This document shows, in pieces, positions 20,201-37,949 of a stretch of DNA of 38,188 nt; position 1 is the stretch's first letter, and every line of letters starts with the position of its first letter. A program made the translations under genes and the position numbers. Under the pieces are notes generated by a model. That model saw nothing but the letters and a program-made list of their open reading frames with translations. It made no database searches and was not told the origin of the DNA. Location: positions 1 to 38,188 of the IMG/VR virus record IMGVR_UViG_3300008117_000170; one strand, 5' to 3'. Origin of the DNA: a virus.

Positions 20201-20228
20201 TTTAGAAATAGAAATTAATTGTAACTAA
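17223..20228 (+). CDS. Large baseplate/tail protein with a gpI-like segment, 1001 aa
   Basis: The middle (about residues 330-480) is helical and includes [30 protein letters not shown]. That resembles the KGT-x-x-[AS]IE-x-x-LR segment of P2 gpI-type tail proteins and many T4-like baseplate proteins. The C-terminal ~170 residues are cysteine-rich after a basic [11 protein letters not shown] motif (nine Cys, with CLQC and CYDN), suggesting disulfides or metal binding at the tail periphery. It is coupled to its neighbours on both sides by one-base overlaps (TAATG) and directly precedes the fibre cassette. It may therefore be the baseplate piece on which fibres are mounted. That role is inferred. 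Confidence 0.6.
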
Positions 20229-22993
20229 TGGCTTGTATTACCGGTTTTACTTCAGGAGGTTATTATCAATACACAGGATGTTGTGGTGATATACAAACAG
20301 GTTTTGCTACTGGAATTTTAGACGTATGTATAGATGCAACACATTCAGCATCTACTATAGGTATTATTTATGATACTGCAAGTACTTGTACGGTTGATTG
20401 TAGTCAAGGACCATTAGATTATTCTTTTTCACTAAGCGGTATTTGTGGTTCAGCAACAGGAAAAGTGGTAATAACACCTACCGGAGGTATACCACCATAC
20501 ACTATAGATCCAATAACACCTACAGGATCAACACTAACAGCACAAACAAGTTCATCGGCAATTACATTTACGGGTTTAACTGGTGGAACTTATGTTTTTA
20601 GATTGAATGATTCACAAAGTATTACTAACAATGAATTATTTATAAATGTAAATGTAACGGGTTGTTTTACTGCGGAAATATACAATACAAGTGGCACAAC
20701 ATGTGGTTCTGATAATGGTAGTTTTTTTGTTACTGCAACTACAAATAATCCGCCATTTAATTTAATACTTTATAGTGGGGGCACAAACTTTGTTAGTACA
20801 GTAACCACAACAGCTTTTCCTTATCAATATACAAATTTACCTGTTGGTATTTTTGACGTATTAGTTTATGATTCTGGTTTTGCAAGTGCTAGAACACAAA
20901 ACGTTATTATAAGTGCGAGTACGGGAATAGATTATGGTTTTTGGATTATAAACGCTGGTACATGTGTAATTGATGGAGGAAAGATTGCAATAACAGGTAT
21001 TACGGGAACTGGACCATACACATATAGTTGGGAAGACTCCCAAGGTAATGTATTGAGTCAAACATCTCAGTTGATAACAGGTTTAACCGCCGGAAATTAT
21101 ACAGCAACTGTTACCGATTATTATGGTTGTCAAGAAACAAAAGTGGCGTCCGTAGGTACTGCTAACCCTATAAGTTTATTAGGTATAGTACCAACACCAC
21201 CATCTTGTTTTGTATCAGATGGTTCTTTACAGTTCACAATGGCGGGTGGGGTGTTACCTTATTTCTACTCCGCAAATACTGGGTATGTTGGAACAACTTT
21301 ATCAAATACTTTTACAATACCTAATTTACCTGCAGGTAATTACACAGTTATAGTAAAAGATGCTAACTTTTGTCAAACTACAGTCACCGCGACTTTAAGT
21401 AGTGTAAACGCCTTCAATGTCGTTAGTAATAATATAACTAACACACAGTGTAATCAGTTAGGATCAATTCAAACGCAAATATCAGGACTAATTGGTTTTT
21501 ATAATTACTCAGTATCAGGATTAACTTCAGGTTTGAATTTAACAACATTTACACAAGACCAAAACATAACATTTAATAATTTAGTTGCTGACACTTACCT
21601 TTTAACTATATCAGGAGAAAGTAGTGGTTGTGTTTATACTGAAAACTTAATAGTTGATAATCAAGATAAGTTCAGTGTAAATGTTAATATTACAGGTGCT
21701 ACTTGTGGATCGGCTTCTGGTATTGCGTTAATAAATGTAGGTACTGGTTATACAGGACAATTAACGTATGATTTGAGTAATGGTTTAACAAGTGGTTTGA
21801 TTGGTTTAAGTTCATTTACCTTTAATACATTAGCTCCTTCAAATTACATTATTACAGTTACTGACTCTGACGGATGCTCTATTTCAAGAACATTTACAAT
21901 TGGACAAGGAAGTTCATTGAATTCGACAGTATTTGCTAATAACTGTACTAATGGTAATAATGGGTCCGCTAATGTTCTTATTTTTGATGGGTCACCACCA
22001 TTCACATACCAATGGAGTAATAACACACCTGCGGGTACAACAGGATCCACCGCTAGTAATTTATCAGGAGGAAGTTACTCTGTTTTAGTTACTGATAATA
22101 GTGGTTGTACAAACCAATTATTATTCAATATTACTTGTAATAGTAATCAAGTTACAGGTACTTCATATTTTTCTATTTGTAGTTCAGACTTTACAACAAC
22201 AACAGGAACTAAAAGAGGTATAAGTGAAATGATATTTGAAGGTTTTTACGATTTAACAACAGGTTATACAGGTTGTGTTTTATCTTCTGTAAATTTAGAA
22301 TGTGAAATTATAATAAATGGTAGTGCTTATACACAAACATTTTTTATAACTAATGATGCTACATGGCAATCAACAATTGAGTCAATACTTTCATCAATAC
22401 CTGAGGTTGGATCGTACTCTGTTAATTTACTTAACAATACATTAACAATTCAGTCTGAGTGTATTGATGGAGTAAATTCATTAAATGATAACTCATTTAG
22501 TTTAAACTTAAATATCGATTACGTTATAGATTGTATAGGTATTGCTCCAACACCTACACCTAGCCCAACACCAACGCCTAGTCCAACACCAACAGCAACA
22601 CCAACGCCTAGTCCAACACCAACAGCAACACCTACACCAACAGCAACACCTACGCCTAGTCCAACACCTAGTCCAACATCAACACCTAGCCCAACTAATG
22701 TTAACTATAGATGGTACAAGAATGGGTATTTTTCATATTATTCAAGCGATCCATCAGTTTGTACAACAACTGGATGCGGGACATCATTTTACACATCAAC
22801 ACCAACAATAACTGTTGGAACCATAATTTATGTTAACAGTACACTAACAACACCTGTTGTAGGTATAAACATCGGAGCCGCGAACGGAGGTCTTGGTAGA
22901 TGTTATTTATCAAATGATTGTCCAATCGTTGGAACAAGATATGTTGCACAAGTAAATGGTTCAGGTCAGGTTACTAATGTATATCAGTGTTAA
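20228..22993 (+). CDS. SprB-repeat tail adhesin with a Pro-Thr linker, 921 aa
   Basis: Predicted virion adhesin. After a Cys-rich N-terminus (about 1-70), about seven SprB-like/PKD-like repeats of ~80 residues run from ~73 to ~637. Each has the pattern C-x-x-x-x-G-x-[IV]-x-[IV] ... PPYTYSW ... [13 protein letters not shown]-x-x-GC; the best copies are the third, fourth and seventh. A globular domain follows (about 638-773), then a 50-residue PTPTPSPT linker (774-823) and a C-terminal domain beginning [14 protein letters not shown] that resembles the C-terminus of the 531-aa protein at 28205. No secretion signal is present, as expected for a virion protein. SprB repeats are known from flavobacterial gliding adhesins. 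The gene is coupled to the upstream baseplate gene (TAATG). Confidence 0.75.
22547..22696 (+). repeat. Hexamer-type repeats encoding a Pro-Thr/Ser linker
   Basis: 150 bases of degenerate 6-bp units (CCAACA/CCTACA/CCTAGT) encode 50 residues alternating Pro with Thr, Ser or Ala. Because the unit is 6 bp, slippage changes length without breaking frame. Confidence 0.9.
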
Positions 22994-32119: not shown

Positions 32120-33742
32120 ATGGCAGGATACAGTGCAACTACATGTGATATTTTAACTCTTTTCCCTATGGGGGTTAGTTGTTTAACTATTGACGCATAT
32201 ACCCCATTCACATCTGATGGATATGCTTCACTTATTATAACAGGAGGAACGTTTCCTTATACGACTACTTGGAGTAATGGTGCTCAAACATCTTTCATCA
32301 GCGGGATTCAATCAGGATTATACACCGCAACAACTGTTGATTATTATGGTGATTTTACTGCCGTTACTGTTTGTAATGTTGGTTATCAAACTTATGGAGT
32401 TGAAAAATTTTATAACTGTAATGATCTAAATAATATAATTTATTATAGGGCTGACTACGATAATCAAGTTTTAACCGGGAAAACGTATTCTATTGTAGGT
32501 CAACTTGGTTGTTGGGTATCTGTTGGTATTGAAATATACACCGGCGGAACATTATATGAGAATTTTGTTCAAATATTAACAGGACCTTTTACTAATTGTA
32601 CTGAGTGTTTACCAACAACACCGGCTTTAGAAAATACTAGTCAATTATGTCTTAGTACGACATCAACAATATTGTCATTACCACCAGTACAAACAATAAA
32701 TCAATATCAGTTTTTTTCTGCAAATACAATAAATGGTTATCCATCATGGACAAGTAATACGTTAACTATGTATTACAATACTTCAGCAACAAAATGGTTG
32801 ATTTCAGGTTGGACTCAACCAGGAATACCAAATTTAGTTTCTTCTTTATCCCCACCAATAGGTGCGTGGGTTTATGATGGTGTAATTGGAAGTGCTAATG
32901 TTACTCAAGGTACATGTACAACTAATTTTATTATAAATACAAATCAGACTAACCCAACATGTATTAACTCAGTTAACGGTGCAATATTTGTCACATCAGT
33001 AATTGGTGGTAATGCTCCTTATACGTATGCTTTAAACAATTCATCACCAGGTAATTTTCAAGCGGGATCAATATTCAACAATTTAGATGATGGAACATAT
33101 ACTGTTTACGTAAAAGATATTATTGGAAATATTGGATCAAAAATTATAACTTTAACACCACAACAATCAATAATAAATTATCAAGTTAATTTATCATTTG
33201 TTCCTGCAAACCCAACTAATACAATTTTAGCGAATGGTAGACAAATTAGTTTCCAATATCAGGTTACTTGTAATCCACCCTTACCAAGTAATAAAACGGT
33301 AAATCTTAGTTTTTTACACACCACAACAATATCTGCGGGAACAGCTACTAATACAACACCCACACTTACTTATACAAATACTACAGGAACAACCGCCGGT
33401 GGTTCATATCTAACAAGTACTCAAACAACAACCACTAATAGTTACCCTAACACTATTTCTTGTCACCCTAATTACTTTACTACCGCAACAACCAGACAAT
33501 ATACTGTTCAATTATCAGGTAGTGGTACAGTTAACGGAAGTATCTTCAAAAAAGTTATAGCAAATACAGGTATTAATTGCGGACCTTTTGGAACAATTAT
33601 AGATAATTTTACAATAACAAATATTTCTTTAAGTAACCAAACAGTTTGTGAGACTATATCAACAACAACCCCAACAATTTCAAATACGGTTAGTTTTGGT
33701 GCCGCATCACAATTTTCTGATGATGAAGACGAATTGAATTAA
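32120..33742 (+). CDS. Second SprB-repeat tail protein, 540 aa
   Basis: Contains two SprB/PKD-like units. The first is at about residues 24-85 (CLTIDAYTPF, ITGGTFPYTTTWSNG, GIQSGLYTATTVDYYGD). The second is at about 275-350 (NPTCINSVNGAIFVTSVIGGNAPYTYAL, LDDGTYTVYVKDIIGN). Between them lies a Cys-rich module with TGKTYSIVGQLGCW and FTNCTECLP that matches the beads of the 531-aa adhesin. The C-terminal ~190 residues are Thr-rich beta sequence ending in the acidic SDDEDELN. It shares parts with both cassettes and lies just after the second, so it is probably another peripheral adhesin or fibre component. Confidence 0.65.
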   Translation: MAGYSATTCDILTLFPMGVSCLTIDAYTPFTSDGYASLIITGGTFPYTTTWSNGAQTSFISGIQSGLYTATTVDYYGDFTAVTVCNVGYQTYGVEKFYNCNDLNNIIYYRADYDNQVLTGKTYSIVGQLGCWVSVGIEIYTGGTLYENFVQILTGPFTNCTECLPTTPALENTSQLCLSTTSTILSLPPVQTINQYQFFSANTINGYPSWTSNTLTMYYNTSATKWLISGWTQPGIPNLVSSLSPPIGAWVYDGVIGSANVTQGTCTTNFIINTNQTNPTCINSVNGAIFVTSVIGGNAPYTYALNNSSPGNFQAGSIFNNLDDGTYTVYVKDIIGNIGSKIITLTPQQSIINYQVNLSFVPANPTNTILANGRQISFQYQVTCNPPLPSNKTVNLSFLHTTTISAGTATNTTPTLTYTNTTGTTAGGSYLTSTQTTTTNSYPNTISCHPNYFTTATTRQYTVQLSGSGTVNGSIFKKVIANTGINCGPFGTIIDNFTITNISLSNQTVCETISTTTPTISNTVSFGAASQFSDDEDELN

Positions 33743-36654: not shown

Positions 36655-37146
36655 ATGAAAAGAATAATTAGACTAACAGAATCAGATCTTGCAAGAATTG
36701 TAAGAAGAGTTATTGCTGAAGAATCACAATCAACACCTAACGTAAGTTTTAAAGATTTAACATTTTCAATTACAGACAATAAGGGTAACGAATTATACAT
36801 GAATGATGGTAATTATGGAAGTGAATTTGATATTTATCTAAAGCAGACTATGTTTGACCAAAATGAAGAAGTTACTTTAGAAATTGGAGGTGGACTTGTT
36901 GGTACAAATGCGATTATCAAAACAGATAGTGGTGATAAGAAATTAAACGTAACAAATAACCCGTTTAAAACAAAATTTAATGTATCTGATCTTACTAAAG
37001 ACACCAAATTAGCTTATGAAAAGATTATAATAACAGGAGCTAATGTTGATGGAGGAGAACTTACCCTAACCTTAAATTTTTCTGACAGTACAATAAGACC
37101 ATCAACAACTAACGAATCTTACAGAAGAAGATATAGAAGATATTAG
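36655..37146 (+). CDS. Tagged protein 1 (shared N-terminal 22-residue tag), 163 aa
   Basis: Residues 1-22 (starting MKRIIRLTESDLARIVRRVI, then A-E) are the same as in the next gene except one residue. The segment is a basic amphipathic helix ending I20-A21-E22, which fits the (I/L)-x-E cleavage rule of the T4 prohead protease. The mature part (about 23-150) is a beta-rich domain (VSFKDLTFSITDNKGNELYM ... AYEKIIITGANVDGGELTLTLNF), followed by a basic, Tyr/Arg tail (SYRRRYRRY) that could bind DNA. No family recognised. I suggest a capsid-internal or ejected protein carrying a packaging tag; a cytoplasmic role with a helical interaction motif is the alternative. Confidence 0.65.
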   Translation: MKRIIRLTESDLARIVRRVIAEESQSTPNVSFKDLTFSITDNKGNELYMNDGNYGSEFDIYLKQTMFDQNEEVTLEIGGGLVGTNAIIKTDSGDKKLNVTNNPFKTKFNVSDLTKDTKLAYEKIIITGANVDGGELTLTLNFSDSTIRPSTTNESYRRRYRRY

Positions 37147-37156
37147 AAATTAAATT

Positions 37157-37543
37157 ATGAAAAGAATCATAAGACTTACAGAATCAGATCTTGCAAGAAT
37201 TGTAAGAAGGGTGATATCAGAAAATAAAAATTCAGATATATTTAGTGAAGATAAATGTTATGATTCGAACGGAAAAAAAACACCTTGTCATAATGAAGAT
37301 AACCCAAATGAAATCACTGGTGTTAGTTTAATTGTTATCAAATTAAAACAAGGTCCACATAATCCCGATGGAATTCTTGGAATTAAATATAACTCAGAAA
37401 CTGGTGAAATAATGGATGCTACTGATGGTACAGTTGTTATTGAATGGCAAAAAAATAAAACAATAGATGAATTGGCGGCATATTTAAGAAGGAATAAATT
37501 GATTAAAAGAAGTCAAAAGAGAAACATACAAAAAAAATATTAA
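37157..37543 (+). CDS. Tagged protein 2 (shared N-terminal 22-residue tag), 128 aa
   Basis: Carries the same N-terminal tag as the gene before it, here ending I20-S21-E22, and then an unrelated body: a short acidic region with two Cys (CYDSNGKKTPC), a beta-rich core (ITGVSLIVIKLKQGPHNPDGILGIKY) and a strongly basic C-terminus (LRRNKLIKRSQKRNIQKKY). Six of the nine base differences from the first gene's tag are single synonymous changes, so the peptide appears to be selected. The basic tails of both proteins fit DNA contact inside a capsid. Starts 10 bases after the preceding gene and is followed by a strong terminator. Confidence 0.65.
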   Translation: MKRIIRLTESDLARIVRRVISENKNSDIFSEDKCYDSNGKKTPCHNEDNPNEITGVSLIVIKLKQGPHNPDGILGIKYNSETGEIMDATDGTVVIEWQKNKTIDELAAYLRRNKLIKRSQKRNIQKKY

Positions 37544-37562: not shown

Positions 37563-37589
37563 AACCCACCCCATAAAGGTGGGTTTTTT
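37563..37589 (+). terminator. Rho-independent terminator after the tagged proteins
   Basis: AACCCACC (37563-37570) pairs with GGTGGGTT (37578-37585) around a 7-base loop, followed directly by further T to 37589. It ends the right-hand structural/late unit before the primase gene. Confidence 0.9.
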
Positions 37590-37628: not shown

Positions 37629-37949
37629 ATGAAAGAAGAGTCACTATTAGTTGACCTTATCGAGAATATTTTTGGTGAACCGAAAAACGTAAATGAATAT
37701 AGTGGTCAAATATCTGTTGACTGTCCCGTTTGTTCCTATGAGATAAAAGGTTTATCAAAAACCGATGGTAAGGGAAACTTAGAAATAAATTATATTAACC
37801 ATGTTTATAAATGTTGGGCGTGTTCTGAAACACATGACACTCACGGACATTTAGGTAGACTAATTGAACAATTTGGTTCAAAAAAAGACAAAAAAACCTA
37901 TAACCTCATCAGACCGGATAAGGTAGAAAAAAAAACAAAAAGAATATAA
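37629..37949 (+). CDS. dnaG: DnaG-like primase, N-terminal zinc-finger part (frame broken)
   Basis: Encodes the CHC2-type zinc-binding domain of a DnaG-like primase: C32-P-x-C35 and, after YINHVYK, C62-W-A-C65 followed by HDTHGHLGRLIEQF. It would lay RNA primers for the DnaB-like helicase encoded at the left of the window. The frame stops at TAA 37947-37949 just after a run of nine A (37927-37935), yet the rest of a primase continues in the +1 frame immediately afterwards. Removing one A restores a continuous product. So this is either one gene with a homopolymer error or real mutation, or a recoded gene. A zinc-finger-only protein is less likely. Confidence 0.7.
   Translation: MKEESLLVDLIENIFGEPKNVNEYSGQISVDCPVCSYEIKGLSKTDGKGNLEINYINHVYKCWACSETHDTHGHLGRLIEQFGSKKDKKTYNLIRPDKVEKKTKRI

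Follow-up and report, generated by a model that had tools for sequence, protein, structure and literature searches.

The last two genes of the phage DNA analysed here (a stretch of 38,188 nucleotides from an IMG/VR virus record, hereafter the window) begin with the same 22-residue peptide, which very probably is a cleavable capsid-targeting propeptide, comparable to the capsid-targeting sequence (CTS) of bacteriophage T4 in the way it would work and unrelated to it in sequence. The case is built on what can be read from the sequences alone: the tag itself, its sharp end at a protease motif, its modularity, the co-occurrence of a prohead protease, a conserved site in the major capsid protein and linkage to head genes. 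The original prediction had proposed a capsid-targeting role by analogy with T4, and it draws support from the sharp end, which falls at (I/L/V)-x-E, from the protease, which belongs to the S77 family, and from the head-gene linkage.

The two genes, ORF1 and ORF2, lie 10 bases apart and form a unit with which the window ends (Table 1). Both open with MKRIIRLTESDLARIVRRVI, followed by AE or SE at residues 21-22, so that the shared N-terminal helix and the I-x-E at residues 20-22 first claimed for these adjacent proteins are indeed present in both, as MKRIIRLTESDLARIVRRVI-x-E. No third copy of the tag was found within the 38-kb record. The bodies behind the tags gave nothing credible and no known domain when compared with Pfam and PHROGs, nor did ORF1 against NCBIfam, and structure prediction yielded no usable model of either protein (mean pLDDT 39 and 41). 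The ORF2 body has a distant homologue that is also tagged (L115:5179-5622).

Table 1. Parts of the two-gene unit in the window; cut positions and mature bodies are predictions.
Feature	Position	Strand	Details	Basis
ORF1	36655-37146	+	163 aa	
ORF1 class I N-terminal tag, MKRIIRLTESDLARIVRRVIAE	36655..36720	+	predicted cut between codons 22/23 (36720 and 36721)	family profile
ORF1 predicted mature body	36721..37146	+	141 aa + stop, ends ESYRRRYRRY	syntenic homologue in L005
ORF2	37157-37543	+	128 aa	
ORF2 class I N-terminal tag, MKRIIRLTESDLARIVRRVISE	37157..37222	+	predicted cut between 37222 and 37223	
ORF2 predicted mature body	37223..37543	+	106 aa + stop	
Terminator-like hairpin with T run	37563..37589	+	closes the two-gene unit	seen in sequence

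A DnaB-type helicase, baseplate wedge proteins and a RuvC-like resolvase mark the window as a piece of a T4-like myovirus genome. Compared by its gp6-like wedge protein, it shows 57-73% identity with nine tag-bearing contigs of 213-322 kb (73% for G002, G004 and G006), 34-41% with three contigs of 348-413 kb and 32% with Flavobacterium phage immuto; judged by sequence, the window phage belongs to the group of large phages that bear the tag. Proteins in its structural region carry SprB repeats of the gliding-adhesin type (20228-22993 and 32120-33742), from which a gliding Bacteroidota host may be inferred. A sister locus, L005, has the same gene order as the window (RuvC-like, tagged ORF1, primase-like) and flanks with 88-92% DNA identity. 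ORF2 is cleanly missing there, marking it as a gain/loss cassette, and a terminator-like hairpin stands immediately 3' of ORF1. The two ORF1 proteins are 74% identical overall and their tags differ at one of 22 residues. The primase-like ORF that follows in the window (37629-37949) is broken by one extra A (A9, against A8 in L005, where the intact ORF encodes 306 aa), reflecting either an assembly error or a recent frameshift.

Recurrence of the tag in IMG/VR is far beyond chance. A first scan with a 32-column alignment of the two starts returned 205 further places and a broader one at least 490, and this one leader, which we call class I, stands on 252 non-redundant bodies from related viral contigs; as had been foreseen, the tag serves as a search key for a previously unknown set of candidate cargo proteins. 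It is present in all 20 contigs searched whole (1-16 matches each), and eleven further large contigs have, at 4-30 matches each, a variant lengthened by one helical turn to 26 residues (LTESDLHRIVKESVKRVxxE). When 84,980 species genomes of bacteria and archaea were scanned twice, five places came up, three of them on small contigs of a single metagenome bin, and the tag therefore belongs essentially to phages. One variant lies close to the end of a contig of gut Bacteroidales that also has host-like genes (L190:111-1541), possibly a prophage remnant. Neither class I nor the class II tag described below was found in immuto, Mel-JY01 or RM378, relatives with the same head type.

The 252 bodies give the pattern M-K-[KR]-I-[IV]-R-L-T-E-[SR]-D-L-x-R-[IL]-V-[KR]-R-V-[IL]-x-E, which is N-terminal in nearly all cases. 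Residues 20-22 read [I/L/V]-x-E in 247 of the 252 (IxE in 205, LxE in 24, VxE in 18), with residue 21 free (N, K and S being commonest). Conservation drops straight after E22, from a mean relative entropy of 3.1 bits at residues 1-22 to 0.16 at residues 23-45. A leader that is recognised, cut after E22 and discarded would be expected to look like this.

Class I is not the only such leader. Some 40 different bodies carry a class II tag (MKxFIISExEKxRILxMHxNATSxxYLxE), which occurs in 12 of 21 contigs, among other places at L005:4742-5371 and in L050, L051 and L069; its ending is LxE in 26, IxE in 6 and VxE in 1 of 40 bodies. A class III tag, MNRSYSKIRHIQESN..LE..., which ends in (L/I)-x-E, stands on 12 proteins (contigs L139, L143, L147, L156, L160, L013 and L027). 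A further shared start, MKIIITESQ..., occurs on many proteins, including large DHH-like ones, and was not counted, having no clean terminal motif. Homologous bodies bear different tags, and the homology begins at the motif. Thus classes II and III are exchanged in YLTE↓QTIAN and FLTE↓QTIAN (L050, L160) and in LISE↓QDVKQG and LLNE↓QEVKQG (L139, L186; the arrow marks the motif end), and the MFFSNL body carries a class I tag in L125 and a short tag of 14 residues in L097 and L098. In such pairs the bodies after the motif are 56-85% identical and the tags 25-36%. In L082 tagged and untagged paralogues adjoin. Interchangeable, unrelated leaders that share only a terminal (I/L)-x-E are, as far as sequence can tell, the strongest argument for one destination and one protease.

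Tags also occur inside longer reading frames. Four large contigs (L373-L376) share a conserved ORF of 599-711 aa with an internal tag-like stretch, IKLSEAELKQVVKEAAMKILSE, and a KINE site; in two of these ORFs the pattern used picks out a second tag-like stretch (IKVTENELKTIIKEAAVKLIKE and its variant), and L123 and L377 contain more than one tag each. With their internal or C-terminal tag copies, these long ORFs are possible polyproteins, which we infer would be split by the prohead protease.

A protease of the required kind accompanies the tag. Peptidase_S77, the family of T4 gp21, was matched above the curated cut-off in 12 of the 20 tag-bearing contigs, in five of the six of these that exceed 200 kb, and then in all 17 further contigs of 149-413 kb, and it was not matched in any of 14 control genomes. 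Contig fragments without a match were not counted as absences. One contig of 214 kb (G006) has tags and no S77 match and is possibly incomplete. The gp21-like prohead protease to be expected under the original prediction thus exists in tag-bearing contigs and not in the window, where none was found; since the window is a fragment, the link to the protease is drawn through its close relatives. Tagged genes also lie near the protease gene, within 3 kb of it in 9 of 14 contigs against 1.9 expected for random placement, a comparison for which no exact probability can be given because of partial relatedness among the contigs. Directly behind the protease, on the same strand and within about 5 bases, lies a tagged gene in L365 and L366, and in L100 and L104 a tagged acidic protein of 98 aa is encoded between protease and scaffold; G001, G002, G003, G005 and G027 have no tagged gene close to the protease.

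The same kind of motif is found in head proteins themselves. In 25 major capsid proteins, three of them from other relatives, (I/L/V)-x-E↓(A/S) occupies residues 59-62 (for example LINE↓A, LIYE↓A and LLKE↓A), a site near residue 60 which we take to correspond to the cut site of T4 gp23, although the two were not aligned here. T4 gp23 loses a propeptide of 65 residues, and the cleavage motif in T4 is L/I-X-E (PMC9026906). The gp22-like scaffold contains several conserved L/I-x-E sites, one of them kept across an insertion. Around residues 35-50 the scaffold reads E-I-x-x-L-V-K-E-S-L-x-E↓Q (L097:6171-7694 and other scaffold genes), which resembles the second half of the tag. That the tag may mimic a scaffold helix is no more than a hint, for a tag profile compared with the scaffold proteins gave no significant homology.

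The helical stretch of the tag, about residues 8-20, is amphipathic (1.5% of shuffles reach the hydrophobic moment of SDLARIVRRVI), and a short helix of this kind would suit any docking role. The tag might accordingly be read as an uncleaved helix that docks its bearers to some other phage structure, be it the tail, the replication compartment or a membrane, with the Glu merely capping the helix. We consider this unlikely: a docking helix does not account for conservation that runs up to (I/L/V)-x-E and no further, the middle residue of the motif being free, nor for unrelated tag classes of different lengths that interchange on the same bodies and keep the same end tripeptide, and the capsid protein has the same motif and tagged genes are linked to the protease.

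What the tags are attached to was assessed by comparing 234 tagged proteins with Pfam, counting domains above the curated cut-off. The domains traced were TseH-like (TseH being a family of type VI effectors), VanY, PG_binding_1 with YkuD, PG_binding_1 alone and LysM, together with one protein carrying sigma-70 region 4. In contrast, a control set of 145 untagged proteins drawn from the same loci returned 68 families, mostly those of ordinary enzymes; the tagged set therefore differs from the remainder of the genome and shows a bias towards cell-wall functions. The appearance of the tag on clearly cytoplasmic enzymes would have refuted the original prediction, and almost only cell-wall domains and the one sigma-region-4 protein were seen. 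A weak match to ArdA (E 1.4e-4) could not be traced to a protein and was not used. Stretches resembling annexin repeats (GLGTDE...) occur in three tagged proteins (L025:1596-2027, L017:97-564 and L126:738-1193), the first of which, scanned alone, had no Pfam match. The very basic C-termini also noted at the outset are real in the two window proteins and do not extend to the tagged class: Arg-rich tails of the ESYRRRYRRY type end 11 of 228 tagged proteins against 1 of 1256 untagged ones, an enriched minority and not a general feature. Arg/Tyr-rich tails are seen in the window at 37114-37143 and in L064, L147, L150, L151 and L005.

Several tagged proteins are very acidic, and these, together with the acidic 98-aa protein between protease and scaffold, invite the suggestion that tagged proteins are scaffold-like parts of the prohead core that are enclosed, cut and mostly removed during maturation, and so never delivered. 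T4 gp67 and gp68 are core components of this kind. Such a role probably does apply to a minority of tagged genes under either reading. For the class as a whole it is very unlikely, since single contigs hold up to 16-30 diverse tagged genes, the majority far from the head cluster, and since there is gain and loss of a tagged gene between sister phages; cell-wall and sigma-factor domains would moreover make little sense in a core.

Within the window, the tag DNA of ORF1 and ORF2 differs at 8 of 66 bases (88% identity). Codons 4, 5, 7, 18, 19 and 20 each have one synonymous third-position change, and the remaining two changes are both in codon 21 (Ala/Ser). The early observation that the differences are mostly synonymous is thereby sharpened: all six in codons 1-20 are, which, with 25% of single changes in codons 2-20 being synonymous, has a probability of about 2.5e-4 and therefore indicates selection on the peptide. 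This, and the retention of the peptide over hundreds of diverged genes, leave hardly any room for the notion that the shared start of two adjacent genes with such similar tag DNA is a nucleic-acid feature (a translation enhancer or recombination seed) or a recent duplication without protein function.

We therefore return to a cleavable propeptide and propose how it would act. The amphipathic helix would bind the assembling prohead core, so that any bearer is enclosed; the gp21-like prohead protease would cut after (I/L/V)-x-E, as expected in the major capsid protein; and the mature body, freed among the packaged DNA, would be carried out with it at infection. In this view the bodies are accessory cargo that changes fast, and several of them seem capable of acting on the cell wall. 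Core binding, cleavage, packaging and ejection are all inferred, there being no virion proteomics, N-terminal peptide or packaging assay. That the tag is a cleavable head propeptide we nevertheless hold with little doubt, and that tagged proteins are cargo of the mature head is highly probable; their delivery into the host is merely probable, the only evidence being the indirect one of the cell-wall and sigma-factor domains.

Known systems offer close parallels. T4 internal proteins IPI-III and Alt carry an N-terminal CTS that is cut by gp21; propeptides of 10-19 residues bring the internal proteins into the prohead core and are removed after L/I-X-E, the first 10 leader residues sufficing in IPIII, and the proteins, unrelated apart from the leader, are injected and inhibit restriction enzymes (PMC9026906, PMC3012670, PMC12373910). 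Like the T4 CTS, the present tag is a short N-terminal leader that small accessory proteins with no other relationship have in common; it ends in (L/I)-x-E and occurs in genomes with a gp21-family protease and T4-like head genes. Unlike the T4 leaders it has 22 residues, or 26 in the variant, is unrelated in sequence, stands on up to 16-30 genes per contig and has several interchangeable classes; targeting and cleavage, proven for T4, are only inferred here. Membership of the T4 CTS sequence family is not supported, since a search of 50,697 phage records with the tag, allowing E values up to 10, gave no match, and a tblastn search of named phages with the tag and its 26-residue variant gave nothing apart from one match at E 7. 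In phage P1 an N-terminal stretch of about 30 residues directs DarB to the capsid (PMC9024508). DarB thus has an N-terminal capsid-targeting signal of the kind inferred for the tagged proteins, but it is a single large protein of a phage without a separate scaffold, and there is no family of small tagged cargo. Head proteins of SPN3US and phiKZ lose N-terminal propeptides to a gp21-related protease, and two paralogues, gp53 and gp54, have the first 15 residues in common (PMC5694885). These propeptides resemble the tag in their position and in the kind of protease, which for the tag is inferred; however, most of those described exceed 100 residues and are found on a restricted set of conserved head proteins, and the cleavage motifs are A-x-E and S-x-E, unlike the present (I/L/V)-x-E. 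None of the tag sequences searched for was found in print in the paper collection consulted. On every feature readable from sequence, then, the tag appears to work like known head propeptides, with a sequence of its own and a cargo list far larger than that of T4.

Since the cargo genes lack recognisable domains, little is known of what large phages inject along with their DNA. If our reading is true, a simple sequence key would list the candidate cargo of a whole phage group, up to some tens per genome, and the tags would provide new short leaders with which proteins could be loaded into phage heads. On balance we favour, with some reserve, a clade-wide delivery code in which at least three, and probably more, unrelated and interchangeable tags ending at the prohead-protease motif would direct hundreds of different accessory proteins to the heads of large phages, with some of the precursors being polyproteins split by the same protease. 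This suggests that removable head-address leaders, known for a few proteins of T4 and P1, may be a widespread form of modular delivery with swappable labels.
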